Shown here one piece after another: positions 12,301 to 44,400 of a stretch of 64,000 nt of DNA (positions within the stretch are counted from its first letter, which is position 1; each line of letters opens with the position of its first letter). The stretch is from Echinarachnius parma (taxonomy: Eukaryota > Echinodermata > Echinoidea > Clypeasteroida > Echinarachniidae), in NCBI GenBank assembly GCA_037951105.1, contig JBAMJV010003104.1, positions 62,001 to 126,000 on the forward strand. The letters run 5' to 3'. A program made the translations under genes and the position numbers. The notes under the pieces were generated by a model. The model was not told where the DNA came from and did no database searches. It saw nothing but the letters and a program-made list of their open reading frames with translations.

Positions 12301-15300
12301 AATGTAACAAAAGATAGACCACTTACACCAATGGAACCAACTGCCTTGTCTAAGCAAAACATTATCATCTGAACAACATTTCTGGCAATATAACACAGTC
12401 ACTTAATTCACAGACATACATTTACATGTAAAAAACAAACATAAACAAGTGAAACAAATACAACTCATTGCACCTTCTGCTTTTTTGGTTAGTTGCAAAG
12501 CGTAAGGATTCATGGACTGTGGAACCAAGGAGGTGAGGGTGGGGGCGGGGCGAGGAGGGGTGGGGGCGGGGCGAGGAGGGGAGGGGGGGGCGGGGGAGAG
12601 CAGGGAGGCTGGAGGGCCTCCAACCCTGCCCCTCCACCTTTTTAGGCAAATACAAATAACTAGAAAGCCATTATTCTCCTTTAATCTTATAAATAGTCGG
12701 TATCTCCACTCTCCGCAGCCCCTGTATTGCACACCATGTTTGAATCCCTACATCCTCATTGAAACAATTGCATGTATATGCTTCAAATCATGGGCCTATA
12801 GAGACTGAAATCAACCAATGCCCCAGGATTCATGTCCTTCAGCAAGGTCCTTCCACATGCTCTCCACAATCATGCTCTCTACCCTATATATAGTTATATA
12901 ATTGATACTCGGTCTGGTGTTTATTATCCTGTAGCACATTGATGGAGCAGCTCATTCTATAATGCTCCCGTGGGAGTTGAGATAATGCACAAGATGAACG
13001 TGAGGGTTAACCGCTGCTGACCAAGGATAATAATAATAGTAATAACGCCCCTCTGAATAGTGCACCTACATGTTGATACATACATTTTGCACTCAATACA
13101 GGCTTAGCTGGCGCTTTATAAATGCTATGTAAATGGTGATATTGATCTGGATGACACATACTTGCTTAATTCCTCCATCTCACATTCTCTGTCATTGAGT
13201 GACGGTTCGTGCTCCATCTCATCAAACATAGGCCTATATTGACATAAAATTGACAATAACAATAGCTATAAAGATGACGATGACGACGGCGACAACGACG
13301 ATGATGCAATGATGGTGATAACGATGTGTGAAGATGCAATGACAACAATGACAATGACCATGACATTGACAAACGACAATGAAAACAATTACAATGACAA
13401 GGACGATGACGACAATGCAAAACGTGTCACTCTTTAAAAAATAATAATCAAATTTGTAATATCTAAAATAACTTATAATTATTGAACGCATCACGTCACA
13501 TGCATATTTTCACATGCATATTTTCACACCCATTGCCATTATTTTGGCACACAATCATGCACACAAAACGCATTGGCCCAAATGCTCTCTAATTAGCAAA
13601 CTTGGATAGTAGAAAGATTACACACATGCGGTCCTACCTTTTGTACCAAGTGCAGTTCTTTCACCTCAGAGTCTTCTATTAAAGGGGACCACCAGGCAAA
13701 GAACAACACATAATTACAGGTTTTGGTACCATTTTGTGATATCAAATAGATAAATATACAGTCAAACCTGTCTTAGTGGCCACCTGTCTATAGCAGCCAA
13801 CCTGTCTATAGTCGCCATCAAAAGTTATCCCCTGCAAGGAAAAACAGTGCTATTGAACCTGTCTATAGTGGCCACCTGTCTACAATGGCCACTATTCTTG
13901 ACTCCCTTGGGTGGCCACTATAGACAGGTTTGACTGTATACCCAACATTTTGCAAAGGGTTGTGTAAATTCATAAACAAAGCAATAAATTACCATCACTT
14001 ACGGAACCACTATTATTTCCTGGTACCGTACGGGCCAAACATTTGCGAGTGCGCAAATGCTATTTATGCGTACGTTTGGAGACAAAAGAATCCCGGACGA
14101 TTCGTTCACTCTGAACAAAGTAGTCTTCGTCCATGAAGACCCATGAATGCATGTTTAAGAAAGGTGATGCATTTTCCAATTATATATATTTTTTCTGGAA
14201 ACATATTTTTGTGAATTTGTTGATGGAATGGACTACTAAAGATGTTACCTTTCATTTATAAGAATATTACTTTTGGGTGACCTGGTACCCTTTAACAACA
14301 GGAGTCAAATTACAAGTATTATCAATAAAAAATTACTCAATTCTATAATGAGAAAGCAAACACAAAGCAAGGGAGACAACTTTCACCACCAGAGTAATTT
14401 TTTTGGGGAAAATGTATGTCCGTCGGACATCCCTTATCACCATCCGGCAAAGTTTGCCTGTATCCTAGGGCTAAACCATCTACCCCCCCCCCCCCTTAAT
14501 GCAGTCCATATACTGTATGCGCCATATATTTCGTGAATCAGGACTTTATGGCAATTTCGCGAGTGGTTAAATTTGCGTTAAAACTGTAAAAGCCCAGTCC
14601 AATACTGACGATTTTCACGGCGAATCACAACGATTTGACGTTCGTCGAGAAAATCGCTTAGGTCGTGTTGCATTGTATTACATCGTATCGGTTCTTCCCC
14701 AAAACCATGGGCGTAGATCTGTCATTGATACCCATTCAACTGGGGGATGATCTATTCATTCATCCCCTCTGATGAATAGGTATTACGTAAGTCGCTACGC
14801 CCATGCCCAAAAACGTGGCTAAATCGAGTCGATTCATTCTAGTAAATCGTTGCGAGTCGTTGCGAGACCCCATGAAAATCGTCCGTATGGGACTGGGCCT
14901 TTACCTGTATGCAGTTTAGGCAGCTGTGTATGTGTATGACTGTTTTGAGAGAGATGCTAGTGCAGTAAATGCATGCAATACACAAACGTTTGCATTTGGT
15001 GTCAATATTTAAGCGTGTTGTTAATTTTGAGATTCACAAGTGATTTGCAAAATTTATGAAAATAAAACCCTCATGAAATACATATAGCTTATACAGTATA
15101 GAAACACTAATAGAGAACATAAAACGTACCCGTCTTCCATCTCGCCCATCTCGATCTCCTCTTTGGTCAAGCTAGGTGTCTTTCGGCAACACGTAACGCA
15201 GATAAACATGAGCAAACTAAATTATTAAATTCTACCACGATAAAACATACACAAAGCTTATTAGTGTACTACACCTTCTACCGCTCAAAAGAAGAAAGTT

Positions 15301-18300
15301 AAAAATTTTAAAATGGAGAAATTCGACATACCCATATTCAGTCTCCCCCATCTCGATCTCCTCTTTGGTCGAGCTAGGCGTCTTTCCGCAGCACGTGACG
15401 CAAATGAACATGAGCAGACCGCAATCGTTGACGCAGAAGCAGCAGACGTCGGTGATGATGAGGAACGCGGCGAAGATGACGAGGACGGTGATGACGATGA
15501 CGATGGTAGCATTCTCATTGTACAGGCCGAGGAATCCCCGGTTCTTTGGCCGTGCTATTAAGTATAGGAATAATTGAAAACTTCATTCTATGAATGATGA
15601 ACGATGAAGATTCTAACAAATACAAAATGGAGAGAATATAATGAAATCATATTCATCCCCCCAACCCCCCAATGTAATATTTATGATGACAACAATGCTT
15701 GCATTCTCATTGTAAAGGCCACATAATCAATCATAGTCAAGAATTGAAAAAAAACATATTTTCTGTTTAGTAACATTGTCCAAATCCTCAAAATCCAATT
15801 GGAAAACTAGCAGTTCTCTCATACCTTGTTTTGTTCGTATTGGCAAAACAACATGGTACAGGTTTCTTTTTTTTCAAATTTCCCTTTCATTACAAAGATA
15901 TGAACGATTGAAGTTTTCAGATAATAAAATATCCGTTGGAGTTTTGAAACCGTGTACAAAGTGAGTGCTGTGAGTTAGTGAATATCACTTAGCATTTTTG
16001 CTCGTTACTCGGCCATATAACGTCCATTTGACTTGAAATTTTCACACAATAGCCTGTGGACATAATAGATAACAACAATATACATTATATCAACCAATCA
16101 TCACTTTTTGCACATGTCAACAAAGTTAATAGATCCCTTTAATATACAACCTTACACTTAACAATTAAATATCCGTTGAAGCACCAAATCAATCTGGCTT
16201 TCCTAGCTGTCTCCACATTTACAAACATTTGTTTTAAATTATGTCTTGCACTTTTGTACCAATGTAATTTGTACATTTTGTTATTGCATTTACTCTGTTT
16301 TCTTATCATGAATATGAAATCACAATCAAATTCATGATCAAATGCTACACAACATGGGTGCGTGTCTGAGCATGTTACAAAATATACCAATTGTACCTCA
16401 CTATCTGACTAATGGTTATTACTATTTGCAAAGTTACAAAAAAAAAATACAAACTCACTATCTGGCGTCGTCAGAAAGTTAAAGGTTCCCGCCGTTTCGA
16501 CGTTGATCTTCGCGGGTTCCCCTTTCCCTAGACTGTTTTCGGCACGCAGCTCTATGTGGTAATACCTGCCTCGGTTTAATCCGTAGATCTCGTGATGTCG
16601 ATCCGTGGAGTCTGCTTTCTCTTCGACGAACCGAGGCCCAAGAGACTGCGTATCTCTGAACTCGATCTTTGGAAATAAGAGAGTGGGATAATTTGCTGAT
16701 TAATACAGAAATAAACAACTTAGCTGATTAACAAATCTTATCAACCAACCCTCAAAGAGAGAGAGAGTGTTTATTAGAAAGTTCTTTGTTGGAATATAAT
16801 TACACACCCCTGTTAAAGTGATCCAGTAACTTTATAAATTAAATATTTTCCAAAAGAAAACAAATTGAGACTTCACATTGTTGTGGGGGGTGGGGCTATT
16901 TTTTTTTTTTTTTTTGGGGGGGGGGAACAACATTCTAAAATTCATGTTGTTACTTGCCTGAATGGCCAAGAAGAAAACAAGTTTTTGGTGATAATACTAT
17001 GTATCCCCATTTGATGACACACGCGGTACCCCGGGGTACCGTTGTACCCCGGGGTACCGCGTGTAGCGCCATCTTGTGTCCACTCGAATCATAACCGTAT
17101 TGCGTTGTGCATGCAGTGCAGCGTGCGCAAGTATGCACGCTATACCCCGGTACAGCCCTAAAAAATAAATAAATAATTAAACAAAATGGCGGATATTCGT
17201 TTGGTACCCCAGGGTACCATTTATGTCATCATTTACAAAATATATCCAGAAATACTCAATTTTTTTGTCTGTTAATATCTGACGATGTATCTCGTAATGT
17301 CAATGGGGAAACAAAATTGAATAACTCATGATATTACTTGCCTGGATGGCTAAGATGAAATTTTTTTGTGGATGATATAGTGTGTTTTCCCATAATTAAA
17401 GGGATAGTTGAGTATTGGTCAAACTTAACTTTAGGGCAATTCCACGGTAATGGAAGGACATTCAGACGCAATTTTTGAAATTTAATCAAATAATTCCAGG
17501 ATCCTGCTTATGATTCATCATTGTAAATAACATTTTTTGAGACTCTTGGTGGGACACCTTTGATTTCCTATTTGTTTTGTGTTTTTGTTACATTACGTTT
17601 ATTAGATATGGACACTAATGAGGCCGGTAACGGAAGGACGGCAAAATGGACATGGATTTTCAAGTTCTTTAGTTATGATCCAATCTCTATGAAGTTTCAA
17701 ATGCTATCATGTTATATTGGCTCATAGTCCATTCCCTAATGTTCAAAGAGTATTACAACATTTATTTGAAAATAATATGTCTATTGGTATATTAATTACA
17801 AGAAGTAAATTGCTTCACTGTTCGGTAACGGAAGGACAGTAACGGAAGGACAGAGTTTTTGATTCATTAAAAATATACTTTAGAGCTCTCAAAAAACTGA
17901 AATGTTGATGTGAACATATATTGTGATATCCAATCATCTAATTTGGTACCTTAAAACAGAAAAATAATAGAAAGGAATGCAAAAAATGAAGAAAATCTAG
18001 AAAAATTTGTGTTCATGTGTATGGGTTCATGTATTGTGTCTGTTTCTCCTATCAGGAGACGCCCAATATTTTTTTTTATCATGTAAACTGAAAGATATCA
18101 TTATGTGATCATGATTTACATGTATGATAAAATAATACAGAAAAAATAAACAAGATCAGAACAAATCCTCATTTGATTTTTCCACTTTTGGCTCATTTGG
18201 CGTGGAATTGCCCTTTAGTAACCAAAACCTGCACCATTAACGGTACAAACTAATAGTTATAACTCCACCATGCTCGAAAAGTATACACAATTACACTAAC

Positions 18301-21300
18301 GACTAAGTAAAACCCCTGTTATCATTTTTTTAAAAGAGCCGTTACAACTCAAGAGGGCGCTTTCTAAAAAACTCATTGGTATTAGCCATTTTTCATACAA
18401 AATTGTGCATTTGATGTTTTGTTAAAATAATGATTCAATAGAGATATCATCAACAACTTTTTAAAAACCTATTTAGATTTTTTTCAAAGTAGTCTATAAG
18501 CATTTTTTATAATTTTTCTAAAAAGTCAAAATGTCCCCTGGCGGAGAACTTTTGAATAAAAATACGTTTATGGATATTTCAGCGGTTTCTGAACCGATTT
18601 TGATCAAATAAAGTTTATTCTGTGATTAAAATTGTATGTTCATTCAAATTTGACAGTCAGTTTTTCATTATCTCACAAAAAAAAATTTGTTGTGCCCTCT
18701 TTACCAAAACTCAAATATCCCATTAATTTGTATTCATAATTTGATTTGCATGCAGTATACTTTTGTTTTACATAATTTATAGCCTGTTATATCAATGTAT
18801 TTACTTTGTTCCACATGAATTTGAATTATAACCAGTTTTTACTTTATACATGACTATGTAATTCAACCTTCGGTTGCGAATACGTAATTTTCAATAAAAC
18901 CTTCATTCAATTCAATGATATCAAATACAAATATTTTTCCGAAATATTTTAGTCTTTTACCTGTGAATAATATCTGATGATGTAACTCTCAATGTCAATT
19001 CAATTAAATAAAATACAAACATTTTTCCGAAATATTTTAATCTTTTACCTGTGAATATCTGATGATGTACCTCTCAATGTCAATTCAATTAAATTAAATA
19101 CAAACATTTTTCAGAAATATTTTAATCTTTTACCTGTGAATATCTGATGATGTACCTCTCAATGTCAATTCCTCCATCATCGATTGGAGCCTCCCACTTT
19201 AGGTCATAACGGTCCTCGAAATCTGATATGGGCCTCGATATGATGCTGGGTGGGTCAGGTCTCTCTGCAAGACAAAATGGTTGAAAACAGATAATAACTA
19301 GATGCAGCGCACTCAGCGAGTGCATGTACCTCCGCCAACACTCAAATTTGTACGACTGGTCGGTGCGGAGATACATACATGAACCAAGTTTGGTGAGAAT
19401 CCGTCAATCGGTTCTTGAGATCACAAGCTATTTTTGCATTTATAATGAGCCCTGCGACCTTCGACCTCATGACCCCAAAATGTACTGGGTTCTATTCTAG
19501 ATGAACACGAAGCTTCTACAAAAAATTGGTTGAGATATCTGTAAAATTGTGCGCAGGAAACTGGTGACGCACTGACAAACGTGATCCCCTGCAGAGAAAC
19601 ATGGAACCTGTCCATAGAGGTCAAATTTAGTGGACACATTTTCTGTGTACCCATAATAGGTGGTCATTATGCAGGTCTGATTGTATCTTATTTATTATTT
19701 AAAATTAGAAATTATACATTGACCACACCACTGGCATATGCAGTACTGAAGCAAATTACCGTATTTGCAGGTGTATAAACCACACCCATGTATTAACCGC
19801 ACCCCCAACTTTGGGTGGTCATTTAAAGCCAAATAACAGTTTGGAAAAGTTACCCAAAACATCTATATTGCCCAAACTAATTTATCGTGCGCAAATTCAG
19901 AAAGGTCCTTTTTATCGGTCTCGGCCATCTAATCAGTGGTCTTGGGCAATGATCAATCTTGTTGATGACCCACCCCCCCCCCCCCCCCTTACACAACAAA
20001 ACTAGTAGTTTTCTGTTTGTGATGGACACTTCCCCAACCCCCAATTTTTTCTCTATCTCTGTCGACTCTGTGTATCAACCGCTTAACCCTTTATGTGTGT
20101 GTCTCGATCAGGGAAAAGAATGCAGAAAATTATATACACGTAAGTAAATAGGGCATGCAACTTACTCTCATCTTCTGTGTTGACAGTCCTGTTCTCAGTA
20201 AAGTCTCCTGTACCCAGTTCGTTTTTCGCTGCTACTCGAACCACATAGATACTCTGTGCACTCAACCCAGTCAGCAAAATATCAGTCTCTGAAAACACAG
20301 AAAAATATAAATTCATTATCTACTTTTTTTCTCTATAAAATGCAAATTGAACAATATCCCATCAGAGATTTGAAGGGGCTTCGGAAAGCTAATCAAATGT
20401 GACTGGCTATAGCATAACCCGGCACTTGTCGGTAAAAATCAAAATGTAGATTTTCACACCATTAGAAAGGCCTCATCACAAGCTTTCATTTGATGATTTG
20501 GTCTAACAAATTGGTAAATAATTGGCGAAGAAATGATTGTTTCAATTTTACAATCATAGGTCTCTTTACACACACTGTGTGAATTTAAAGTGCCCATTTC
20601 TTCAAAACATGAATAACCGACAAGTGCCGGGTTTTGCTATAGCGGGTCACAAATGGTTTACTGCAGCTCAAGTACCAAGGAAAGGAAAAAAAAATACACA
20701 AGAAAAGGAAAACAATTATGGGGTGAACAAGACCCCAGAAAACAAATGATAATCTAGAAAGGAGGTAAACATGCGCACAGCTTTAGAAGACCATTGATAG
20801 AGATGTTTCGAACAACTGAGTCGGGAAGACTGTTCCAGATCCGCAATGCGGAGTAATTGAAGCTCCTGCCCAAGAATTACGCATTGGCATCTGGGAGTGT
20901 AAGAGCATGTTCCAGCATAGATGTGCAAAGGCGGGTCACTCGCCGTCTTTCCATGGAGGGAGGGAGCACAGGGTAGGAATTAATTTTTTTCTAAGGGGGC
21001 TACTTTTCACCTGGCCTCAACAAATCAAGGGGGTTACTTTTGTAAATATTGTTTTTAAATTTTGGAGGCCCATCAAAACAAGCCGACGTACAAAGAAAAA
21101 CAATAACAATAATCTTAATTAGGGCCGAGTTATTACGGTTATTTGACTAACCGTTTAAACGTTGTCTCTGAACGGTTTAAACGTTTACAATAAAGAATTT
21201 GTGGTCGCCCCTTGAAGTTAGATTTAGGGGGCTATTTTGAGACTCACGCGGGCGAAATCTTGTTTACACAAAGTTTTCTTGGGCTAAAATGGCAGCATAT

Positions 21301-23381
21301 CTGAGTGGGGTCGTCACAATAGGTGAAATTCTCCCTCCGTAAGGCTGTGTTCAGATTTATAAAAATTAAAACCCAATGCTCGTGTAAATCAGTCATATCA
21401 ATTTACTCACGCTCTGCTGTTGTGGGTCTGTTCACACAAAGTTTTCTCGTGCTAAAAGGGCAGCATATCTGGTTGGCGTCATCGCAATAGTTGAAGCACT
21501 CCCTCTGTGTGGCTGTGTTCGCTGGTGGCAGCACTTCGCTACACAACTGCTGATCACTAACAGCTGGTCAAAAATATAACAAACACAATAATGAAATCAG
21601 ATATATAGAGAAACTGACCAGAATAATGTATAACATTAATGAACTAGATGGGTCTTCAACTGCGCGCAGTCGAAAATGATGCCTCCCCTATCACACGATT
21701 TTTTATATCCAGCCCAAATTAATATGCATTGAATTCATTCTGTAAACTCAATTTTGATAGTATTCCATCAACGGAATCTTAGGAAATATCACAATTACTA
21801 GCTATTTCTGTATACATGAATCCTGTGACCTTGACCCCAAAATTGTGTGGCTGCCTTGGCTCCCTAAGATACATTCAGCTAGTACCAAGTTTGATTAAAA
21901 TCTGACATTCAGTTCTTGAGTTTGTACAATTGCAAGCTATTTCAAACTATTATAATGAGTCCTGTGACCTTGACCTTTGACCCCCAAATTGTATGGCTAC
22001 ATCGGCTTGCTATGATCATGTACCAAGTTTGATTCAAATCTTACACACAGTTCTTGAGATTTTGCCATTACAAGTTTTTTTTTGCATATATAATGAGTCC
22101 TTTGACCTTGACCTATGACCTCATGAGACCAAAAATCTACACAGATCATTGTCACCCCAATATGAACACTCATACCAAGTTTGAAATTGATCCGCCTACT
22201 GGTTCTTGAGATATAGCGAGAACGAAAACAGGATGGACGGACGGACAACCAAAAAACATAATGCCTCCGGCCACTTCGTTGGGGGAGGCCTAAAAAGAGC
22301 CACAATAAGGATTTCCCTGGGAATTGTATGAAGTGAAACACATTTAGATCAAACAGTTTACAAATGTTCGACATTTACACTAACTTACAGTTAACCAGAA
22401 GTCAACATGTACTTGCAGGTCATCAAACCTTTACATTTCTTGCTATATAATAGAATTGTCAGAACATCAATTGGCTTGAAATCGTGAGTCCAGGAACCCA
22501 TGATTGGAAGATATGGGGCACATCCATGGGGGGAGGGGGGGGGGGGGGGGGGGTCAGACTCATACAAAAGCGTTACCCACTCGTGTCCATCAACCTCTGA
22601 AATGGACCCTAAATGACGTAACGCACCATCGTAAGTTTACGCCTCTAAACGGCATAATGCTGTGAAAAACCTACCTTAATGGCGCAAAATGCACCTGAAA
22701 AGGTACCCTTTTTTGTGATTTTGTTTTGACGAGTGCTGAAAACCACCCCTTTTTTAAGGAAAATGTTGGCGACACCTCATAGCGAAAAAAATGATACCCT
22801 TTCGACCCTTTTTTTGGATGCCGGTGCGTAGCCAGTCCTGTTGGAAGTGATCACCCAGGATCACATCACTCCACAAAGCAACCACACAACCTACCATTTT
22901 CATAATTCTTGGTGGTTACACCTTGTGTACCGCGGACATGAAAAGAAACGGCGTAGCCCAGAACCCGCAAACCACCATCATCAAGCGGAGGTCTGAAACG
23001 GATGCTCATTGTGGAAGAACTGACATCATATATTTCAAAAGCTACTGGCTGTGATGGTTTAGCTGTAAGAAAAAAGAGAATACGTTTTGATAGAATAGCA
23101 ATTAAGGAGGAAACAAGTTTCAAAATCAGAAAATGGGTCCTCACCACGTGAAGACATGGCAGCATGGATGGGTAAAAAAGAACTTTAATACACGTCTAGA
23201 ATCGTTTTTCTTCCTATTCACTGTTATTATTATTCAATTCAATTATCAAGGAGGGATTTAACAAACTCCTGTCCAATGCTGAGATATACCTTAGTGCTGT
23301 AACTGACCTTGATGATCGGATCGTTTGATCGGATCGGCAAAATTGTATCGATCTTCGAAATGATCGGGATCGGATGATCGG

Positions 23382-23436
<55 letters not shown>

Positions 23437-26400: not shown

Positions 26401-29400
26401 ATGATGTTTCTTGATTCATAGTTTTACATTTTATTCAACTTTTTGAAGAGTTGAGGGTCCATAATTATCCCCAAGGTCCTTCCACATGACCCCCATGTCT
26501 GTCCACACAGGTTTGTGCTCATGTTAAGTGGTCAGTTGCATGATCAGGCAAGGAACTGATTTAAAAAGTATCTCCGTGTTAAACTTTTTACGGAACAAAA
26601 GGATTACAAGACAAAAGAACACAAGGAGAGGTTTCCATGAATGACCATCACACCGTGTTGATGAATAGATCTAAATCTTGTGCGCACAGCAATTTTAACA
26701 TTGCTCATTTAAAATGCTTGCAATTCAATAACTACAAGCTCAATTATAAAAAATTTGGTATCAAATGAAAGAATAATAAATTATTTTTGCAATGATATAT
26801 TGCAATAAACATAACTATGTTTAATACATAAGATATTGCTGGTGGAAGTTGGGTTCCGCTTTTTTGTAAACACTCTGTATAGGATTGAAATCTCAAATGT
26901 CATTTTGGGCAATATCTGACATTTTACAGGTGCACCTTTAATTACTTACTGTAGAAACCTAGTAAATGCATGTAATTATACTTACATCTGACGTTCAAGA
27001 TGTGATCAGTGTAGACATAATAACGCTACCGAAGAGCAATTCACTTCACCCATTCCCTACAAGTTTATGAAATCCCCATAGACTTTGTACACAACCCACT
27101 TGGGTCCCGTGGTCAAGGGGTTGATTACTTACTGTACAAGCCTAGTAAATGTATGTAATTATACTTACATCTGACGTTCAAAATGTGATCAATGTAGACA
27201 TCTCCCGCCGCACTTTCACCATAGCACGTCCAGATACCCTCTTGTTCTCTCTGGACATTGCTGATGGTCAATGTTAGAGCCTGTGTGATGGGGTTTCTAG
27301 TGACCACAATCTGCTGGTTATCCGGCTATTCAAATAAAAATATAAACAATTGGGTTTTAATTTTGATTTATTCATTTTGTTTACATTTTGAGCTGCAATA
27401 TTTCTGTAGGCTGTAGCTCATCCAGACACCTTCATGTTCCTGCTGGCGTTGCTGATAGTCAGTGTAAAGCCCTCCACACACAGAGCCGACTTGACTCGAT
27501 CTGACTGGTCAGGCTAGAGTCGGTTTCGCTCAGTCGGAGCCGATCCAACATGTTGAATCGGCCTTGAATAATCTCCGACTGGCTCTTCACTGGCAAAACA
27601 TGAGTCCTTAGTCAATGAATACTGAGCTGAACCGACTTAAACCAGTCGGATCAAGTCAGCTCTGTGTGTGGAGGGCTTTAGAGCTTGCATGATGGGGTTT
27701 GAACCACTACTCGGTGATCATACGGCTATTTAAAAACAAATAGAAACGGAAATTTTTTTTTATTTGAATTGTTATACATTATATTTTGTACATTCCCAGC
27801 TGATGTTTCATTCTGTGTAGAACGTCCAGATAATTGCGTGGTGGGGTTCTGCGTGCAATTGCAGGCACATAATTCCATGAAATATGATCATCATGAAAAT
27901 TACACCTACCAGTACTTCATGTGCCCTGCACTTACAGTATAATCTTACATTAATTCTACTACTAATAATAATAATAAGATACCATAATCCCATAATCATA
28001 ATATACAAAAATTGAAATGGGTGAACTGCATGCAATGGACATATCAAATGGCATGTTCAGGACTGACTGATTTTTGCTATAACATGCATTCTCCATAGAC
28101 CCTATAGCCGGAGTATTTTCGGGTTAATGAAAAAGAAAACAGATAAAACATGTACACGAAAAGAAGAGACTGCAAAAGAAAGAAAAAAAATATATTGTAT
28201 AGCTTCAACCAACCTGTGCACCAATCACCAGCACATCCATTCTGTCTCTTCCATCACGCCTGAAGGACAACGTAACATCCGCTCCAGGATTCGTGTTGGC
28301 GCATTCAAAGGTGGCAGTTCGCGACTCTGTTTCGCCGTACTCCAAAGTGACGGGGTTGGTTAACACGGGAGGGACCAACACGTTGAGTAAGATGGACCTT
28401 GTGATCGACGTCCTGTAGAAATCAAATTAAGACCTTTGGATTAAAGGGGTAGTTCAGTTTTGGTAGAGAGGTGCTGCACATCACAATTTTGTTGTGAGGT
28501 AATGAAAAACTGAGTGTTGAATTTGAGAGAACATGCAATTTTAATGTCAGAATAAACTTGATTTTGTCAAAATCGACCCAGAAACGGCTGAAATATCAGT
28601 AAATATCTGATTTTATAATTATTTGGGGCCCAAATAATTAGATGATTTTAAAAAAAATTTAAAAAATGCTTGCACCTTTTCAAAAAATATCTCTATTTAA
28701 TCATTATTTCAATAAAACATCACATGCATAATTTTGTAATTTTGTATGCAAAATGGTTGCAACCAATGCCTTTTTAGAAAGCGCCCTCTTGTGTTGTAAT
28801 GGTTCTTTTTTAATGATAACGGGCTTTTTACTTAGTCGTTTGTAATTATGTATACCTTTCGAGCATGGGGGAGTTATAACTATTAGTTTATAATATTACT
28901 GTCCAGGTTTGGTTACTAAAGTTCAGCCTTACCAAAACTGTACTACCTCTTTAACATATCGAATAAGGAATGATGCTCCAGCGACATATAATCACCCTGA
29001 CTCTATCAATTATTTCATGATCATTTTAGGCTAAAATTTATACAAACAATACAAAAATGATAACTTTTATATATCAAAATGTATTTTTGCAATGAATTGT
29101 TTGCTTTGTTTCTCTATAATAATAATAGTGGCTACATGAACAATGCATGCTCCATCTCTCGATGCATTTCATGTGAGAATAGTAAAAATTACGCTCGTGG
29201 TTCTTTGTACAAATTACATCTGGTTATCAAATGAGGAAAATATTTTCATTACAGATCAATATCATATTGATTATTACAATTGATTATCTAAAAAGTTACA
29301 GGAGTTACAATTCTTCTGAATCATTGGAAGCAGTGCATTTTATAATGTGAGTGTTGCCAATGATGGGCAGCTGAGGATTACAAATGAACTATTATTAGTG

Positions 29401-32400
29401 AAAACTTTATCCAAATAGGTTTTGACCTATAAATGGTCAGTTTTTTTCATACAGTGCAGGATTTTGGGTTGAATATACTTAATTATTAACCATAGCAGAC
29501 ATCTGAGCAGGGCAATTTTAAAACGATATTGCCCTCGAAGTTGAATAAGCCAACAAAACTACGGGTGAAAAAAAAATGATATTGCCCGCTCAGAAAAGTC
29601 AATGGGATTTTGTGTGTGATTTGCTGGTCAATATGAACACACAGTAAACCAATGGACACAATCTTATTGCCCGCTCAGGAAAGTCAATGGGATCTTGTGT
29701 GTAATTTGCCGGTCAATATGATCACACAGTAAACCAATGGACAAAATCTTATTGCCCGCTCAGAAAAGTAAATGGGATTTTGTGTGTTATTTGAAATTTG
29801 CCGGTCAATAATATATCAGAGTATGAATGCGCGCTAACAGCGCATGAGTGCGCAAAATCATACCATACGCGCATTTATTAATGACGTATGAATGGATTTG
29901 CGCGTATCTAATTATGACGTAATAATATGTGTTGGCATCTCTGCTATAACTTACGCGCTAGCTAAGTAATGATTCTTTACAAACTGGGTTGAAGATGCAT
30001 TTGATTAAAACTTGAAGTTTAAACATTGTTCAATAATTGTAAGAATTGTGACAATTTGTACCCTTTAAATTGATATATTGCATGTTCGCTCGAGATGTCT
30101 GGATTTATTAATAATTACAATATTGACTGGACTATTTCTGGCTACACTACAAATATTGCCCTCGCTAGATCCATATTGCCCTCGTCTTCGACTCGAGCAA
30201 TATGAATCTAGTTCAGGCAATATATGTCGTGTCGCCTAGGCCTACGCCTAGGCCAGTCAATATTGTTTAAATATACACCAATACATTTGAACTTCTCAAC
30301 TCATCTCAAGTTATTACCTGAATTTCGATCCCACTGGATCATTGGACACAGTGCATTCTATGTTGTAAGTGATACCGACGGTAGGCAGCTGAAGATTCTT
30401 GATGCGCAGAATGCTGCCGTAGTCGGAAAGCTCGTATACGCCTGGGGTATGCGTGAGGTTGAAGGGGTTCCTCGTTCGGTCGACCCACGTGACAGTCGGC
30501 ACTGGGTTGCCATCGGCTAGACACTGCAGCGTCACATCCGTGTTGATGACCCCGTCTCGGTTTTGTGGCAGGACGCGCCAGGTCGGTGGTACTGCGAATA
30601 AATTAAATAGCTTAGTTAATACATATTTCTTCAAAAAATATCTATCAAAATTGCCAAAAAGGATTATTGCAAATTTTCTAACTTTTGGGTCAACCAAAGT
30701 GACAGTCGGCACTGGGTTGCCATCAGCAAGACACTGCAGCGTCACATCCGTGTTTATGACCACGTCTCGGTTTTTTGGCAGGATGCACCAGGTCGGTGGT
30801 ACTACCAATAAATGAAATAGCTTAGTTACTTAATATTTCTTCAAAAAATTGCCAAAAAGGATTATTGCGAGTTTTCTAACTTTTGGGTCAACCAAAGTGA
30901 CGGTCGGCTGCAGCGTGCCATCAGCCACAAACTGCAGCATCACATCCGTGTTTATGACCCCGTCTCGGTTTTGTGGCAGGACGCACCAGGTTGGTGGTAC
31001 TGCGAAAAAATGAAATATCCTAGTTGTTAGGTATTTGAACTAGAATTATTTTTCACAATTGCCAAACAGGATTATTGCGAGTTTTCTAACGTTTGGGTCA
31101 ACCAAAGTGATGGTCGGCTGCAGCGTGACATCAGCCACACACTGCAGTGTCACCGCCGTGTTGATGACCCCGTCTTGGTTTTGTGGCAGGACGGGCCAGG
31201 TTGGTGGTACTGCGAAAAAATGAAATTACTTTGTTGTTAGATATTTGAACTAAAATAATTTGTCACAATTGCCAAGAAGATTTATTGTGAGTTTCCGATC
31301 AAGTTTGGTTACAAACAGATGCAGGGTTGGAAAGTTATCAACCCTAATAGACTCTTGCAGGTAAAATTTCACATTTGACCTCATTTGACCTTCGACCTTC
31401 TTAAGTGACCTTTGACCCCAAAATATCATGGAGGCCAATATAGGGCACCTAACAATCATGTTCGGATACAAACAGATACAATCCGATTGAAAACCAGTCG
31501 GATCAGGTCGAGTCGGCTCTGTCTGCAGAGGGCTTTAGTCTCCCTCCACCTACGGTGGGCTCGACAACAATGTCCTATTTATTTTAGATGAAGTTAAGAA
31601 TTTATTTTAAAGATGTATCATAAAAAACAAAGTTGTATACCAGATTGAAATCCTCAACTGAAACTCTAAAGATTCATACACATGAAGATTGGGACAAAAA
31701 ATAAAAATGCTGTATTATGGTCAAATGACCTGGCTATTCATATACCTTGTACAATAACGTTGATGTCCAAGTTGTTTGAGATGGAGTTGTCAGGATAGTA
31801 GGCAGTGCATGTGTAGGTCCCTTCATCCTCTTCAATCACATTGTACACTGTCAGCTGACCAGCCACGATTGAACTGTACTTTGCTATATAAGAGAGGGCA
31901 CAAAAGGTGATTGTAATTGTAATATTGTCAAAATCTACAAAATTTAATTACAACTCTCATAATTCTTACTAAGGCTGAGTCGGTTCGGTCGATCACACCG
32001 GTTACCGACCGTTTCAATGGGGAACCGGTTTCTTTATATCGGAAACGGTGCCCCGAAAAAAAAATAAAAATAATAATAAAATGTTAACAAAGAAATTAAG
32101 ATTATCACTTAATGTAGCGGAATTCAAATAAAAACGGGGCAATCGATATCATTTAGCGGCTTGTTTCAGCTTGGTGCGATGCTGAACAAACGATCGATTT
32201 CTAGGTCCAATTTACTTCGGAAAAAATACTTTTCCTGCGAAACGTGAGTTAATTCTGGATAGTCTGTAACTATTTTCCCGTAAAGATTGATATGTAAATC
32301 CATAAAAGCGTCAATATTTGTAATGTTATTTGCATATAAAAGGAGCAATATAAGCCCCAAACAGTGCATTTTTGCCGATGCTTGCACGATTGCGTGATTT

Positions 32401-35400: not shown

Positions 35401-38400
35401 GTGCAGAGGATAAGTGAAAACTCAAATGCCAAACTGGAAGCAGCCATGGAGAGGAGCGAGAGGAAGCTCAGTGAGCTCATCGAATGCAATCTGTCGACCC
35501 TTCACGACATCCAGGTGACAATTGACAAAAAGTTCGCAGAGCTTCAGCAGCTGCAGACGAAGATCGACGCCCATGAAGAGAAGATCAGTGGGATGACTGC
35601 CAGCCTCAACAACTTGGAGCAGTACTCAAGGCGCAACAACATCAGAGTCCTGGGTATTGCTGAGAAGGATGGTGAAAACACCGACGAGGTGGTTTGCGAG
35701 CTTGCCCAACAGATTGGTGTGCAGCTGTCTCCACGCGATATAGACTGATCGCACAGGATAGGAAAACCACCAGGTCAGCAGAAGCGCTACGTAGATGCCT
35801 TGCATTCTAACACTTCAAGATCTGACCCACCGCGACCCATCATTGTGAAATTCACATCCTACAAGCCTAAACAAGTTTTGATCAAAGAGAGGCGAAAGCT
35901 CAAAGGAACACGAACTATCATTGTTGAAGATCTTACCGCAACAAATGCCAAGCTTCTCACCGCTGCTCACAAACACACGAAAACCTGTCATACATGGTCC
36001 GTCGATGGGAGGATTTTCGTGACGGTGAAAGACTCGAACAACATGGAGAGGAAAAGACTGATATCTTGCCACTCTGACCTGAGAAACATTTGAAATGAAT
36101 TTTACACACGGTAATATATTTTGAACATATTTTATCCTACTAATTTATTGTTCAATTATTTATTGTTTTAAAAGTGCAATTACATGAGAATTTTAATATC
36201 GAAATATACGGTTTCCCGGAAGATTATAGGTGTTTTGTTTTAATCACATTTCTTCCAAACTTTTTTTTTTTTTTTTTTTTTACCCACATTTTTTATGCGT
36301 GTATTGTCTTTGTGTGTGTGTGTTTTTCAGTGTTTTGATTTACATGTGTTGATGTATGATGCCTGATCGTGCTGACATTTTAAACTTTTTACTTTCTATA
36401 AACTTGCAAAATGTTTCTGAATTTTTATCTCCTTTACATGAGGTAGACGGCAATGATGGACCAGTGCAATCTTATTATACACCTGAAGAGTATAATGAAT
36501 TCATTCATAAATTATCTGATGATATCCCCCGATCTGATGAGTTTTCTTGCGTACACATTAATTGTAGAAGTTTGAATAGTAATTTTGATGACATGAGATT
36601 GTTTTTAGATAGTGTTCAAAGGAAGTTTTCAATAATTGGTGTAACAGAGACATGGTTATCTGAATATGATTCGTATTATGATATTGATGATTATACACTT
36701 TGTGTGAATGGTAGGGCAGAAGGTAAACGAGGTGGTGGGGTAGGTGTTTATGTAAAAAATGATTTTGAATTTTTTAGACGATATGATTTAGATGTGAATA
36801 ATTCCTGTATGGAATCTATTTTTGTAGAAATAAATAACCCACAAAAGAATATTATTTTAGGTGTAATATATCGACCACCGAAACATTCTGTTCAATCATT
36901 TTTAGAGGAATTTGTACCCGTTTTAGATATTGTAAATAGAGAAAATAAGATATTGTATTTAATTGGGGATTATAATATTAATCTTTTGAATGTTCAATCT
37001 TGCCAACATGTGAATGACTTTGTTGATGTACTTATGACAAATTCATTGTCTCCTATTATCCATTGTCCAACTCGTATTACGAATAACTCACAAACTCTAA
37101 TTGATAATATTTTGACAAACAATTTAGAATGCATACATGCTGGTATATTTCTTGTGGATATAAGTGACCATTTACCTATATACTTTATTCTCCTGTATGA
37201 GTGAGCATCATGTTTGAATATTATATGGATAATTTATAACGTGCATTACATTTATACCCCATCAAGACAAGGGGCTTTTATTATTGTATATTTACCTAGA
37301 TGTATTGTTTGTATGTACGTTACTTTGCTTTACTGGGGTCGGTTTTACATAAGGCAATTACAGCCTTTCTACCGACTCCTTACACTTTATAATTTTGTCC
37401 GTATTTTGTATACTTTGTATGTAGAACTTGTATTCCTTGATTTTCTTTTGTTCTTACCTTGTCAATTTGTTGTTTTTATGAAGTGTTAAATAAACTGAAC
37501 TTGAACTTGAACTTGGATGACCGTTTATAACCCAACCAACCAATCAAATTGATTCAATCTGTAATCTGTCTTATGCCCACCTGAGTTGCCTACCAAGTAC
37601 TTATTTTGCACTGAACACCCCTCGACGTTTCCAGTGATAATTCCGCAAAGCGTGCAGGTATTGCCGCGTGACTTCATGAGTTTTTTCATTGAAGTCTTGC
37701 TCAACTTTTGACACCAAATTTGCGATGACCGGGTATAAATACCGTTCCGAAGTCACGTGACATTTTGTAAGTGAATGTCGGCCAGAAAATTGCTCTATTT
37801 TGTGATTTGTGTACAAATCCTAGATGGAAATTGATTTTTTTGCTAAAATACACAAAAGCTTCATTATTTTTCATTATAATCACTGCAATTATACGGGCCC
37901 CGTGTCACACACTCACACCCGGGAACCGACTATACTCGGTTCCGAAAATACCACACTCATGACACTATTTAATCGTCTAAAAAGCTATATTCTGAATGCA
38001 GACATACTGAATTTGTTATATCACTTGAAAGCTAATAAAATAAGCTATCGAAATATCTCAGACTTGTGACGTATCATGAGTTTTACAGCAATTGGTAACT
38101 GTATAAAGTATGTAATGTTACTTACAAAGTTGAAATAATTTCGTACAGCGGTGAATGTACGATGTACCAGCCAAAATTTAGAGAAATTGCGTTTCGCTTG
38201 GACAGCGAAATATTCCGTGCGTGCGCGCCATGCCAATAGAGATTGTACGTGATTCTGTATGGATAAGAGCTGTATACAGCTGCCTAACTGGATCTTCACT
38301 GTTGTATAGAATACATTTCTATACAAGGTTACCGGCCTTTTGTGCGTGCACCACCACAACCGAAAAAATTGATTTCTCTGCACGCACACACGGCCGCTGG

Positions 38401-41400
38401 TCTTTTGTGTGGATGCCTTGGCTCGTATAAGTGAAAAGAATCTCGTTTTGGGGGTCGATAGATGCGCTTTTATTTTCGGAAGCAACCGGTTAATTAAGTC
38501 AATATTCATGAACAAAATTAACTAGTATATTCTGAGCAATATTTAGTAATTTACAGAAAAAAGAGGATTTTTGCATAAATTTGCATAATTAATTAGAAAT
38601 CGATTATTTTTTTTCCAAAAAACTAACAATGCAATCTTTTAGATTTTGGCGCAAGATAGCGGTGTGCCAAATTTTGTGGCTGCCGCGTGTCAACGGCTGA
38701 GATCTCGGGGGGGGGTTAAGGTTAAGGCAAAGACGCTTAATGGAAAGACCGACCACTGTACAATTATCCTGTACAAAATGAACGGGCAGAACGCGATGTA
38801 CAAAATTAACACGCACTTTGATATGCAGGCTATTCATTATGACGTCACAATAACAATGTTTACTTCTCCTGACTAAAAATAATTTCAAGAACACGTGATA
38901 AAGTTTGATGACCCCAAATTTGCATATCGCGCGTGAAATTTGTTTTGCGCACTTGGTTGCGCGTACAATAATAAAGAATAATAAAGGACTGAGCGCGCGT
39001 TAACATTAAAATACGCGAGTAGCCATTGCCATTTTTTCTCTATATGGCAAGATCTTTAAATTTCAAAAATATATTTCTCACAGCTATAATTTCAAACTTA
39101 AAAACGCTATATCGACTATAATTTCTAAATATTTTTAACTAAACAAAGACAAAATTAAATAAGCAAAACAATGTGTCCCCCAGGTGTACTGAACTTGGAG
39201 ATAAGCTGATGTTCAATCGTCATACTAACCTGAATTTGCCAAGTTTAAGTAAGTACGTTCTGATCCTTATTTTTGTTTAAATTAATACTAACAAAGAGAA
39301 CATTTGTTCTAAAAAAGCTAACGACTATAATTTTAAAATGTTTTTTCATTAATTAAAATGAACAAGATTGAGTACTGAATCCAATCCTCTGGGTGTACTG
39401 AACTTTCTCTTAAGCTCGACTTGAATCTTTATTCAGTCTGAAGAAACATCGCTGCGCGACCGCAAGTGAGCTGTCTTGTAATTCTATAGTCTTTGGTTAA
39501 GGTTAATGTCAGTAGGCGCTAGTGATAATGAATGACTTACCTGGATTGCTGATGCTGACTTGACCGGAATTCTTCTGCCAGCTGACGCGCACATCCATCT
39601 GCAGCTGTGGCTGTGGTATTGGCCGGAAGGTGCATTCAATCGTCCCCGTTGTGTTGAAGAGTAGTCGTTGATTCTGTTCCTCCTCCATCCTCGGGAATGT
39701 GATTGCTTCTGTAGACACAAAAAGTTAAAAAGTTAAAGACCTCCCCGTGCCAATGTTGGCACATAAGGGGGCGCCTATCTCCGATTCATTAGCCCTAGGC
39801 CACACGTCTACTAAATGTAGCGAAAGCTACAGAAGGGGGCCAGTCCTCTGGTAACTCGTGTGATTAACTTTTCCTTCTCCATTCTATAACTGCTGAGCAC
39901 CCGGCTAGAAGGCTGAAGGTACCATTTTAAAAGTCTTTGGTATGACCCGGTCTGGGTTCGAACCCGGGACCTCCCGTGCATGAGGCAATATAGTACACTA
40001 TAGTACAATGACATTTCTAGTGAATGCTTGTTGTCTGTTGACCTTGCAAGAATAGTTCCTAGTTCCTACCATATAGTCTATGCATAGGTTACATCCGTTC
40101 CAACATTCTTTGTTTGGTCAATGCAAAACTGATTTGCAGAAGGAGAACAAAAATATATAGATGAGAGTAAGTTGTATTCTTTTTTGTTATCATTCTTACC
40201 CACAACAATGACATTTCTAGTGACCGTCTGTTGTCCGTTGACCTTGCACGCATAGTTCCCTCCGTCCGTTAAGCGCAGGTTCCGGAAATGAAGCTGGGTG
40301 ACTTTGTTGAGAGTGCTGGGATCGACAGACTCAGAGATGTACACTCTGTTACTTGAGCCTGCGGCTGAGAGAGTTAAAAACAATAAAAACACTTTTAATT
40401 TAATTAATTATTCAAAGAAATCTGACTGTAACAAACAAGAGATTCAAACTCCTTGGTTTCTCCATGGCAGATGATGAAATAATTTAACCCCCAGATTATT
40501 CTAGAATTATAAACATGCATGTTGTTTTAAGATTACTTATTCTTGGTCTTTAAATCTGTCCGGGTTTCGAAAACCCTTTCATTTGCATCGCTAAAAAAAT
40601 GTGACATCTAAGTGTGTAAGTTGACGCACTAATTCTCCCATTCATCGATACACACTTCTTTAAAAGCTATTCCAGCTTAATTTTACCGTCATTTCATCTA
40701 AGCATTTTCATATATGCACAAAACATAGCAACCTTCCAGTCTGAGCGTGCTGAACAATTGCTAAATTGCAAAATGTACCATGCATGCTACAAAATCAATG
40801 CGCGAAATGTAAAATGTCGCTCAGACTGTAAATTGTCCCAACCATTCACAAAGAAATATATTTTATCGGGTGGTGACTTACTGATGGGATCTGATATGGG
40901 ATTATCCCACGCTGGTTGGGACCCACTTGAGCCACTCGGGTTGGTGCATGTGTAGAGCCCAAATCCACCTACTGTCAACGTCAGCGGAGTGGACGGCTGC
41001 ACGATCAAGGAATCTGTGTGCAAACAAAATAAAACAAAAGCAATTAAATATCTACATACACCATTCCCTGATTAGATTCATCTGATTATAAGTAGAACCT
41101 TCAATAACTGTTATTTTCACACAATCAAATGAATCACCTTTATTTTTTAACTTGACGATTCAAACAACTTTGATGTCTTTCCTCAGATGTAAGTTCTCAG
41201 AACATTTGAAATTTGAGGAAGCTAAATTTCAGTAAGTCGATTGTCTGAAAACAACATCTTGAAAGGTTAACATTAATTAGTCTCCTACGGTCAACGTCAG
41301 TGGAGTACGTGGCTGGCTGCACGATCAAGTAATCTGTGCAGACCAAAAATTAAACAAAACAAATGCCACAAAATATAGATCTATGTTAATAAAATAAAAG

Positions 41401-44400
41401 AGCTAGTTAGCCCTATGTTGTTGTTCCCCACATGCCCCACTCGGTTGGTAAATGTGTAGAGCCCAAATCCTTCTCTGTCAATGTGAGAGGAGTGGTAGTA
41501 GGCTGTATCATACAGTGTATGATTCAGGAATCTGCCCAAAAATGTGATTAATTATCGACATGAAAAAGTTGACCCGCTATATATTCAGTAGAGTGTTAGG
41601 TTGTTCTAAATCAAGAAATATGTGCGGAAAGACAAACAAAACAAATGCGATGAAATATCAACGTAAAACAAACATTATTAAGAGATTATAGCCCGACACA
41701 GTACATGTAGTTTGAACTAGTTTCTCATTTGCCAAAGTCTCCAGGACCTTGCATGTCAGTCAACATGAGCCAATGGAGAGACAAATTAAAAGAAAATTAA
41801 ATGATGATTGAGAAAATTATGTAAAACTTGAAAGTTGAAGTGAGAAGATAGGAAAACTTAAGGATCTAAAATCTAGATTGATAATATATTGTTTATTTTC
41901 TGTTCAGATCTATAATGTGCACAAGGAATTTGTTTTATTACATGTAGTATGTACATCATTGAGAATATAATTCTTAATATCTTGGCAAGACTATCCAAAA
42001 TAGTACAGATACCCAGATACCCATGATAAAAACAGTACTCAGAAAAGAATAAGAGTTGTTAAGTAAACAATAGGAATATACATGTAGGATCATGTATGTT
42101 TATTGTACGTGCTCTTAGTCTGTTTACTTACACCAAAAAGCGCACTCGAACCAACGACTTCTATGTTTGCTCATCTTTTGTGCAGATATGTAACCATCTC
42201 AAGATATATTTGCTTTAGAAATATAAGTCTTATGAGGCTAAAAGTAAATGATTGTAGCTAACTTAGCTGACAGTGACAGTTTTATTTGCTTCTTCCCTAC
42301 TTCTACAAATATAAATGCCTGATATAATATATCTAATCTACCCAGATAAACTAAGTAGCCCCTATAATACAAATTAAATACATCCCCTCCTTCCAGAAAA
42401 GAGCCCATTGCATTCATACTTTATTTCAAGTTCAATGCATCACTATATAGTTCATACTTACTGTAGTCTGTAAGGTTTCTATAAGCTTGAAAAGTAGCCC
42501 CTCAATTGATTAATTGAATTCCCACAATTCTGAATTTTATCTAAGTACTGTACGTACTGTATGAACTAGAATTAACAAAGAAACATCTATCTAGATGTTT
42601 GATGTGTTTGTCTAATAGTTATTTGTGAAGGTTTGCAATATTGATTCATCGTCCTGCATGACTGACCCTTCGATAAACAATTCTTTCATTATTCATGCTT
42701 ATATTTTGTATATCTCTGTACATTTCCCTTTTATTGTAACGTTTCTTTGTGCTTGTTAGACAATAAACTATGCAATGTTTGTACACACAAAAAAAAAAGT
42801 AAATGTTTGCGTAGAGGCTTACAAATTTTTCCTTTGTGAGGTACATGAAATTATGCTGCAAGTTTGCAATGCACTATATAAATGCATTATTATTATTACT
42901 ATTATTATCATTATATTCCACATACTAAGAATCTTGCTCTACGATTGGTCAAGTTAATCACGTGATGAAAAATAGTTTTGCCCATCATTGATGGGAGAAG
43001 AAAAGTTTGTTACACTGTGTACTATCTTGGGTGAAAGTGCATTGCATTCACTACTATCTTGGTGAAAGTGCGTTGCACTGTGTACTATCTTCAATTGTTC
43101 GCCCGCAAGTACGCGTGCGCACGCAGAAAGGTAGCGCGCTGGTGCGCAACATTTACGCGCGGCTACGCTTAATAGACAATGGTACAAGCGTCTTTGACTT
43201 TTAATCATAAATCTTGTTCATGTGAAGGATTGACGAAAATAAAATAAAAGACTTGATCAATTGCTCAATATTCCAAACTTTTTAGCCCTTTGTGTTTAGT
43301 TAATAGGTTGTTTGTGATCAAAATAATTGATGTGGAATATAAAGCAAATAATCACCTTTTGGTTTCAGGCGATGGCAAACTATCACTTCCTCAGCGATCT
43401 GAATGTATGTATACAGTATCTTTCCTCAGCTTCGCTTCGGAAAGATAGCTACATCCAGATCGCCTCGGAAGTGAGTTTGTCCAATCACCTTCACCAACGG
43501 TAATTATTTGCTTATTACTATTTACTATCTTTATTTAGAATTATTATCAATACTATCTTCTTTATTATTATTATTGTTATAATTATTATCATATTTAAGT
43601 ACTATTATTATTCTAATCATCATTATCATTATGTAAACATTATATTATTATTATTATTAATATTACATTTTATAAAACTGGGTGGAGGAATGGCAAGAGC
43701 ATGCATATTTTGAAACATTATTACCTCTTTCAAACACCCTTTTTTGCCATTATAATTTGTGTTGTACGGACGACGTTATTACGACGCCTTTGAAAGACTA
43801 GTTTTTGCCATTATAATTTGTGTCGTTTGAATGACCTTATTATGACGTCATTAAGGCAACTTGTTATGACGTCCTAACGATCACGTATGGGGGTGCAAGT
43901 TTACGTTTTATTGATGTCAAGTTACGTCAGCTCTTAAAAATGTAATACATGACGTAAATAAATAAGGCATAAATTTTACCAGTTTCTGCTATCAGAGTTG
44001 ATGTATAAATTGTGATTAATTAATTTCTAGATTAAATTCAATTCAAAATCCTTCACATAATTGATATAATATCTCAAGCATATAATGACAATCCCACTAG
44101 TAGGCCTAAATGTTAATTTCAGGGAAAAAAGAAATAACGCAAACTAATTTTGGAAGGAAATGGGTTGAAATAGTCTCCTGTTCGAACATGCAGTGCACTT
44201 CTGAGGTGTTAATGGCTTTACCTTCTATTTTTGCTAAATTGTTGCCATATGGCAATTCGATTTGATCAATAAGTTAACGTTTCAACCATATGTTGTTAGC
44301 ATTTGAATAATTATGCAAACAAATATGTATAATAAATCTTACAATTATAAAGACACAAATTATTAATTTTGTATCCCATTGACATAATTGGCAATCAAAC

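Follow-up and report, generated by a model that had tools for sequence, protein, structure and literature searches.

The NCAM-like gene and its exons

The window analyzed is a stretch of 64,000 nt of Echinarachnius parma, part of a 1.2-Gb genome that is open to sampling. Its minus strand carries what appears to be an NCAM/fasciclin-II-like gene, and this gene hosts the exon copies listed in Table 1. Members of the NCAM/fasciclin-II family have five Ig domains, two FN3 domains and a single transmembrane (TM) segment, with most of the Ig domains divided between two exons. The exon model comprises 15 exons, the first exon and the cytoplasmic tail lying outside it. A Pfam search of the gene recovered four Ig and two FN3 stretches, while the fifth Ig domain, the TM segment and the domain order were read from the exons. 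In a PDB search, titin gave the top score and NCAM2 was matched at 1.4e-31. The Cys-rich cassette exon had no significant Pfam match and no PDB match. Exon 15 matches an exon of a paralogue on contig C3325.

Table 1. Exons of the NCAM-like gene and the local copies derived from them (window positions)
Feature	Position	Strand	Description or basis
Exon 2	40882..41013	-	exon model
Exon 3	40200..40358	-	exon model
Exon 6 (Ig3)	30318..30591	-	exon model
Exon 8 (second half of Ig4)	27169..27325	-	exon model
Cys-rich cassette exon	21411..21563	-	phase 1-1, between both FN3-1 half exons
Exon 12 (second half of FN3-1)	20166..20288	-	no local copy found
Exon 13 (first half of FN3-2)	19134..19264	-	exon model
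Exon 14 (second half of FN3-2)	16457..16702 (ends approximate)	-	no local copy found
Exon 15 (TM and membrane-proximal segment)	15332..15554	-	splice sites, frame; source of copy
Intron copy	41610..41670	-	copy of the intron stretch immediately upstream of exon 2; self-comparison
Exon 2, second upstream copy	41407..41495	-	interior, neither splice site, two single-nt deletions
Exon 2, upstream copy	41284..41364	-	acceptor and 5' part (46 nt), 4-nt insertion
Exon 3 copy	40005..40059	-	55 bp of interior, without the exon's splice sites
Exon 6 copies	30592..31330	-	three upstream units, ~210 bp each
Exon 8, upstream copy	27373..27830	-	with acceptor, interrupted by element
MITE-like element in exon 8 copy	~27465-27680		35-bp inverted ends, TA flanks
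Exon 8, 3'-end copy	26938..27018	-	last 33 nt and donor, 81 bp, 93%
Cys-rich cassette copy	21261..21352	-	nt 44-135, 92/153 nt
Exon 13 copies	18907..19133	-	about two further units, last 38 nt of exon and donor
Exon 13, outlying 3'-end copy	17234..17304	-	diverged, stop present, donor lost
Exon 15 copy	15130..15216	-	87 nt with acceptor TTTAG and donor GTACGT, both ends in phase 2

Structure of the exon copies

Copies were defined as local direct matches of at least 40 bp, no more than 1.5 kb from their source and with E no greater than 1e-3, using a self-comparison of the window together with the exon model. The initial annotation had described copies of exons 2, 3, 6, 8, 13 and 15 and of the Cys-rich cassette, and the same seven were recovered (7/15 exons), with E-values of the exon-overlapping pairs from 3e-179 to 9e-8 in the self-comparison. 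Truncation was seen at each of the seven, and the statement that copies always lie in the direction of the gene holds, since none of the 15 exons was overlapped by a local inverted repeat in the same search.

The three units upstream of exon 6 each repeat the acceptor AG and the first 117 of the 274 nt of the exon, without the donor, and the units following exon 13 have a period of ~85-88 bp and are ~94% alike, marking them as young. The copy of the Cys-rich cassette has a suitably placed AG and GT, the donor being kept, and one Cys is lost; as it is 5 nt shorter on the donor side, it is out of phase. Matches to parts of the MITE-like element that interrupts the upstream exon 8 copy are present at 31493-31537 and on contig C3325 as well. 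Given these signs of decay (frameshifts, absent splice sites, the MITE insertion and altered phase), most of the copies look dead.

It is scarcely credible that the matches reflect chance, low complexity or transposon-borne repeats. Some repeats of the window are indeed transposon-internal or simple, such as the array at 61.6 kb and the ATC tract at 23.9-24.4 kb, and the stretch separating exon 8 from its 3' copy contains a dispersed repeat of 104 bp, but the exon-derived copies hold exon sequence of the gene itself, and it is this identity that refutes such a reading. A DNA search of the assembly with 26900-31400 (40 candidates scored) returned no other match to exons 6 to 8 and no second haplotype of the stretch, and the best candidates of a protein search were the locus itself, the paralogue, which is diverged, and weak matches of titin-like or FN3 type.

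The exon 15 copy as a candidate cassette

The copy of exon 15 corresponds to the last ~83-86 nt of the exon, and is the only copy examined in which two splice sites and the frame are kept. It fits in frame after exon 15 with few amino-acid changes and is, judged from its sequence, a candidate cassette exon; because the transmembrane part is absent, it could serve only as an added cassette and not as an interchangeable alternative. It differs from the exon at 3 nonsynonymous and 8 synonymous positions. Neutral expectations under three assumed rates were 16.6, 10.6 and 7.0 nonsynonymous changes, for which a count of 3 has P values of 6e-5, 0.007 and 0.08, respectively. At 0.10, its raw nonsynonymous/synonymous ratio is the lowest in a set of 14 copy pieces, of which two have no synonymous change and hence no ratio. 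With the paralogue as outgroup, the copy lineage carries 3 nonsynonymous and 3 synonymous changes and the exon lineage 0 and 6, three changes being ambiguous, two of them beyond the donor. Strong purifying selection on the copy was considered and set aside, as the raw ratio weakens once polarized in this way; constraint is suggested, not proven.

In Dscam-type genes, tandem exon copies within an IgCAM gene form mutually exclusive clusters. The present gene is alike in being an IgCAM gene with tandem exon copies, but differs in having no full in-phase alternative set. It is improbable that selection keeps the copies as a store of exons for alternative or mutually exclusive use. The two splice sites, open frame and low nonsynonymous count of the exon 15 copy would agree with such a store, as would the paralogue, where two of the three copies of an FN3 exon have a frame open across the copied part. 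Against it, each of the other copies has at least one splice site missing, a frameshift, an interruption or the wrong phase. Most of them have a nonsynonymous/synonymous ratio of 0.3-0.6, close to that of a neutral copy paired with a constrained exon; the small exon 8 pieces give 0.18-0.25 on few changes, though one is frameshifted, and the outlying exon 13 copy gives 0.91. Copies are also about equally frequent in the unrelated genes sampled. Both splice sites, the same phase and an intact frame in every copy, as in a mutually exclusive cluster, were not found here, so the likeness to such clusters that had been proposed was not supported: the exon 15 copy alone has both sites with its frame, and it is additive.

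Duplication density in the gene and in the genome sample

Direct-duplication clusters number 14 in the 26.7 kb of the gene span (5.2 per 10 kb), 15 in the remaining 37.3 kb of the window (4.0 per 10 kb) and 21 in 60 kb made up of 12 random 5-kb stretches (3.5 per 10 kb). The random stretches belong to a sample of ~220 kb from outside the window, a sample and not the whole genome, which also takes in the paralogue locus (17 clusters in 25 kb), the control loci of the FN3 (24 in 52.5 kb) and kinase (21 in 29.4 kb) sets, and transposon flanks (19 in 53.2 kb). Density in the gene is not significantly higher than in the random stretches and transposon flanks (p 0.14). Over 230,873 sampled bp there were 112 direct and 23 inverted clusters, and a reversed-sequence null gave 23 by a loose count. 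Local same-strand duplications are therefore present throughout the sampled loci and are not confined to one gene.

The FN3 controls (15 loci, 17 cores) were taken from 150 listed matches, with L066 added from a protein search, and selection favored short open frames on mostly separate contigs, passing over multi-copy matches and the titin contig; titin loci L001-L008 were left out. Before pruning, 6/17 FN3 cores had copies. For the table of 52 exons, L059, which is nearly identical to L058, was removed together with two additional L061 cores, giving 4/14, and the match left for L061 is between two successive FN3 exons; the totals of 111 and 112 clusters include L058 as well as L059. For the kinase controls, 11 were used out of the first 13 listed entries whose open frame is shorter than 150 aa, each with 1.2-kb flanks; C1562 and C7072, the latter lying near a contig end, were excluded before their sequence was seen. 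The kinase listing shows a repeat in the excluded C7072. Transposon loci L010-L028 served only as a replicate, with the transposon masked. Twelve exons were recognized in the paralogue, their ends being approximate, as are those of exons 14 and 15 in the overlap counts.

Are exons preferred?

When exon positions were shifted at random, the 7 exons with copies compared with 5.0 expected within the gene span (p 0.19) and 3.8 within the whole window (p 0.06); restricting copies to those within 700 bp gave p 0.036 and 0.015, respectively. The same test on the paralogue gave 8/12 exons against 4.0 expected (p 0.012). Exons with copies numbered 7/15 in the gene, 8/12 in the paralogue, 4/14 in the FN3 genes and 7/11 in the kinases, with no difference between this gene and the remaining 37 exons (Fisher p 1.0). 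For all 52 exons, 26 had copies, compared with 24.6% of random intervals (p 7e-5) and 32.4% of intronic intervals (p 0.006). By the shift test, the copies in the gene lie only weakly above the background of the genome, and in this sample exon copies are a general genome trait, not special to the adhesion gene.

The concentration in a single adhesion gene that the initial annotation had seen was not upheld, given the kinase and paralogue fractions and the density comparison. It had named the same density around all genes as the outcome that would count against it, and this is what the sample shows, with the non-NCAM FN3 genes lower (4/14). Duplications fall on 45% of non-exonic intervals at the kinase loci, which are duplication-rich overall, so the kinase fraction need not be an exon effect. 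Since the FN3 genes are lower (3/14 without L061), the two NCAM-like genes could exceed the average gene. In the available part of a human survey (PMC9013439), adhesion genes are enriched among the top 200 genes rich in exon homologues.

The overall excess on exons is compatible with mild targeting too. Separated by age, young copies (at least 88% identity) touch 6/52 exons compared with 7.6% of random intervals (p 0.20), and copies of 80-88% identity touch 14/52 compared with 5.1% of random (p 2e-7) and 10.9% of intronic intervals (p 0.001). The exon excess is limited to older copies, and this pattern fits the slow decay of pairs having one frozen side, not targeting, in an age test that has little power because there are only six young cases.

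Spacing, mechanism and relation to known systems

A more directed process, in which exons are preferred targets, for example through breakage or re-annealing of transcribed or nucleosome-bound DNA, and the copy is placed about one nucleosome repeat away, is unlikely. Offsets of 120-239 bp account for 73/111 clusters, with a single cluster at 240-299, the seven kinase exons that have copies show nearest offsets of 168-199 bp, and partial-profile repeats in the kinase listing are 189, 189, 183 and 303 bp apart. Such regularity does not carry over to the transposon flanks (5/19 offsets in 120-239, 2 in 240-359) or to the myosin listing (a single partial-profile pair, 313 bp apart), exons show no significant enrichment of young copies, and selection against over-close splice sites could produce similar spacing. 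Sharp nucleosome-scale spacing, strong in the first sample and weak in the replicate, was accordingly dropped as a general law and is kept as a possibility.

Our preferred reading, to which we give a probability of about 0.8, is that genome-wide, short, local, same-strand duplication followed by decay explains the exon copies. Assuming that the sample represents the genome, it would steadily produce same-strand duplications, from tens of bases to some two hundred in length, most of them beginning less than 240 bp from their source and striking introns and exons without distinction. Since such a piece would be roughly as long as an exon, it would usually cut the exon and take with it no more than one splice site. 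As intron, the copy would then decay while selection keeps the source exon, and exons would look preferred because exon-derived pairs stay recognizable longer than intron-intron pairs. Copies of mixed ages are present in the sample. The initial annotation was right to propose a local duplication process; it conserves polarity and mostly fails to make exons, in agreement with the bias towards direct clusters and with the decayed copies.

Most simply, the route may involve staggered breaks with fill-in and end-joining, or strand-annealing repair from a nearby template. Aligning spacer against outer flanks in 23 gapped pairs gave clear extension in four, with z above 5 (window 45409, L053, L059 at 745 and L068 at 167), and L059 at 308 reached z 4.0. 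The other 18, some above 90% identity, had z below 3 and no clear spacer-flank homology, four of them lying at z 2.3-2.8, including the Cys-rich cassette and exon 15 pairs of the gene. Plain head-to-tail duplication with decay is therefore insufficient as the sole model and fits only some of the pairs. A stronger version, which we put forward tentatively and regard as rather improbable, is an unusually active germline process in this lineage that makes copies of 40-180 bp about one nucleosome repeat (roughly 140-220 bp) away, leaving around half of the sampled exons with a partial copy, mostly with at most one splice site, of which a few become cassettes like the exon 15 copy.

Doublets in other genomes reportedly show a same-strand bias. 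Doublets (Thomas et al. 2004) and close direct repeats (Achaz et al. 2001) are described in the available part of PMC2671141 as short and mostly tandem or nearby, but those surveys concern identical or near-identical copies under 100 bp, whereas the copies here are of mixed ages and often longer. Tandem duplications can arise from breaks with overhangs, according to the portion of PMC5730883 available, and human repair-mediated local duplications of up to 619 bp also capture exons and splice sites (Pace et al. 2009, PMC2671141). As far as the accessible text of the latter goes, the human events are alike in being short (median 147 bp), intrachromosomal, close and apt to catch exons or splice sites. 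They differ in a mean donor-acceptor distance of 1.2 kb (most here are below 240 bp), in the exclusion of pairs within 50 bp and the restriction of acceptors to the inside of transposons, and in that one of two fully copied exons was inverted, whereas none was seen inverted here. Tandem exon duplications (PMC9013439) are alike as exon homologues within introns of their own gene, and the part of that survey available gives ~2% of exonic nucleotides with a homologue of at least 80% in human, 0.08% in fly and 0.06% in worm; the present figure is 421/2563 nt (16.4%), from one gene, by another method and mostly in broken fragments.

These results carry a warning that the genome background should be measured before exon copies beside a gene are read as exon diversity. 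If the stronger, rather improbable version held, there would be a continuing supply of half-made exons, of which a few may gain the missing site and be kept as in-frame cassettes. Should the rate seen in 52 exons hold genome-wide, E. parma would offer a natural experiment on the birth and death of exons, with copies of many ages and varied splice-site combinations countable in one animal.

Organization of the gene and its paralogue

Splice sites and reading frame define exons e2 to e15 of the gene, on the minus strand, along with a Cys-rich cassette exon. The assembled protein matches the Ig and FN3 models of Pfam and PDB chains of titin, NCAM2, contactin, DCC, Robo and others, and the domain order read from the exons is 5 Ig - 2 FN3 - TM, the order typical of NCAM and fasciclin II. 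No exon 1 was identified, nor, in a comparison with a short stretch of the paralogue, a cytoplasmic tail. In a protein search of the 1.2-Gb genome, of which the window is C3103:62001-126000, one clear paralogue was found (contig C3325, 41–63% identity), the other matches being weak, titin-like and FN3. The Cys-rich cassette splits one FN3 domain, the halves of which join in frame without it; it has no significant match in Pfam (best E 0.25), none in PDB, and gave no tblastn hit against 25 kb of the C3325 paralogue. It is possibly an alternative insert into FN3-1.

Coordinates of the gene and associated features (window positions; L038 is a sampled stretch of the paralogue)
Feature	Position	Strand	Remark
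Gene, e2 to e15 and cassette	41013 down to 15332	-	
Cys-rich cassette	21411-21563	-	phase 1-1
Exon 15	15332-15554	-	
e15 copy	15130-15216	-	87 nt
Direct repeat of exon-8 3' end	26938-27201		two 81-bp copies with the ~104-bp dispersed repeat between them
Match to dispersed repeat near exon 8	25715-25819		92%
Paralogue FN3 exon	about L038:3361-3522		
Stretches with its three copies	L038:57-418, L038:3164-3489		
Inverted pair	45071-46378, 56786-58095		1.3 kb, 99% identical
Open frames	35296-35748, 36353-37204	+	
tRNA-family matches	59185-59258, 63318-63378, 63127-63185		
Repeat family, ~148-bp internal units	21818-22225, 61578-62141, about L038:977-1250		

Several other elements are present. The inverted pair, its members about 10 kb apart, has the look of a young element's long terminal inverted repeats, and the two open frames may be the ORF1 and endonuclease frames of a non-LTR retrotransposon. 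The tRNA-family matches lie within repeats recurring in the window, probably a tRNA-derived SINE.

Local copies of exons

The exons overlapped by local direct repeats are precisely the seven for which the initial annotation had named copies: e2, e3, e6, e8, the Cys cassette, e13 and e15. Copies of e2 and e6 and the longer e8 copy lie upstream; those of e3, the cassette, e13 and e15 and the short e8 copy lie downstream. Of the exon-overlapping pairs, the least alike are those of the e8 upstream copy (67.5% identity) and e2 (about 77%), and the most alike those of the e8 3' end and the e13 array (93–94%), so the copies probably differ in age. An element with 35-bp inverted ends and TA flanks subsequently split the e8 upstream copy; parts of this element have further matches in C3325 and at other places of the window. 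The 81-bp repeat of the 3' end of exon 8 brackets a ~104-bp dispersed repeat almost exactly, much as a target-site duplication of unusual length or the filler DNA of a repair joint would. All three copies of the paralogue FN3 exon have an acceptor AG; they depart from the genuine exon at one shared position in its interior and lack its donor.

The gene compared with the rest of the genome

In this sample, the gene is not special for local duplications. A concentration in this one adhesion gene is not supported: in the sample, 7 of 11 kinase exons and 8 of 12 exons of the paralogue have local copies too. A local copy was found in 24.6% of matched random intervals, in 32.4% of intervals taken from the introns of the two NCAM-like genes, and in 31% (FN3) and 45% (kinase) of non-exonic control intervals. 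Among the listed matches to the kinase profile (contigs C1746, C333, C7072 and C12035) and the myosin profile (C1237), truncated repeats covering one and the same part of the profile likewise lie near each other.

Clusters of local direct duplications and exons with a local copy
Set	Clusters per 10 kb	Exons with local copy
Gene	5.2	7/15
Rest of window	4.0	
Random stretches	3.5	
Paralogue	6.8	8/12
FN3 loci	4.6	4/14
Kinase loci	7.2	7/11
Transposon flanks	3.6	
All four exon sets		26/52

Age of the exon copies

The exon excess sits in the 80–88% identity class (14/52, compared with 5.1% of random intervals, p 2e-7, and 10.9% of intronic ones, p 0.001) and not in young copies of at least 88% identity (6/52 against 7.6%, p 0.20). 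These p values assume independent exons, although adjacent exons of one gene are not independent. In the oldest class (<80%) the excess is small (13/52, compared with 18–20%). More frequent hits on exons would surface first in the young class, where six cases give little power. Exon copies may instead stay recognizable longer, as selection holds one side of the pair, which would produce an excess at middle ages; the excess seen there fits exons being remembered longer.

Arrangement and possible origin

Copies share the polarity of their source and lie close to it. The e6 and e13 arrays are true head-to-tail units, and the spacer lacks a clear match to the outer flanks in 18 of the 23 gapped pairs tested. 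Both the tandem and the separated outcome are known from break repair: joining of breaks with overhangs yields tandem copies (PMC5730883), while annealing of a strand to a template close by yields separated ones (PMC2671141). Break repair may be the source of both here. Offsets of 120–239 bp occur in 73 of 111 clusters, a peak that suggests a chromatin length scale, but in the replicate only 5 of 19 offsets lie there.

Fate of the copies

Judged from their sequence, the copies in the gene appear mostly not to be alive, because splice sites have been lost, both e2 copies carry a frameshift, the e8 copy is interrupted by a MITE, the Cys copy has an altered phase, and the outlying e13 copy contains a stop. 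The e15 copy is different: it has an AG acceptor, a GTACGT donor and the same phase, 2, at either end. As an exon it would insert 29 residues, giving the Cys-containing membrane-proximal segment a second time. Over 83 aligned nt it differs from the exon by 3 nonsynonymous and 8 synonymous changes; for a neutral copy, three rate assumptions predict 16.6, 10.6 or 7.0 nonsynonymous changes (P 6e-5, 0.007 and 0.08, respectively). With the paralogue as outgroup, the copy lineage has 3 N + 3 S and the exon lineage 0 N + 6 S; three changes are ambiguous, two of them beyond the donor. Because no other of the 14 copy pieces tested is as extreme, the result is a lead and not proof.

Local homologues of at least 80% identity cover 421 of the gene's 2563 exonic nucleotides (16.4%). 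A published survey (PMC9013439) gives about 2% for human, 0.08% for fly and 0.06% for worm, by another method and as an average over all genes. What surprises is this difference in rate, which, on the present sample, is a property of the genome and not of the gene.
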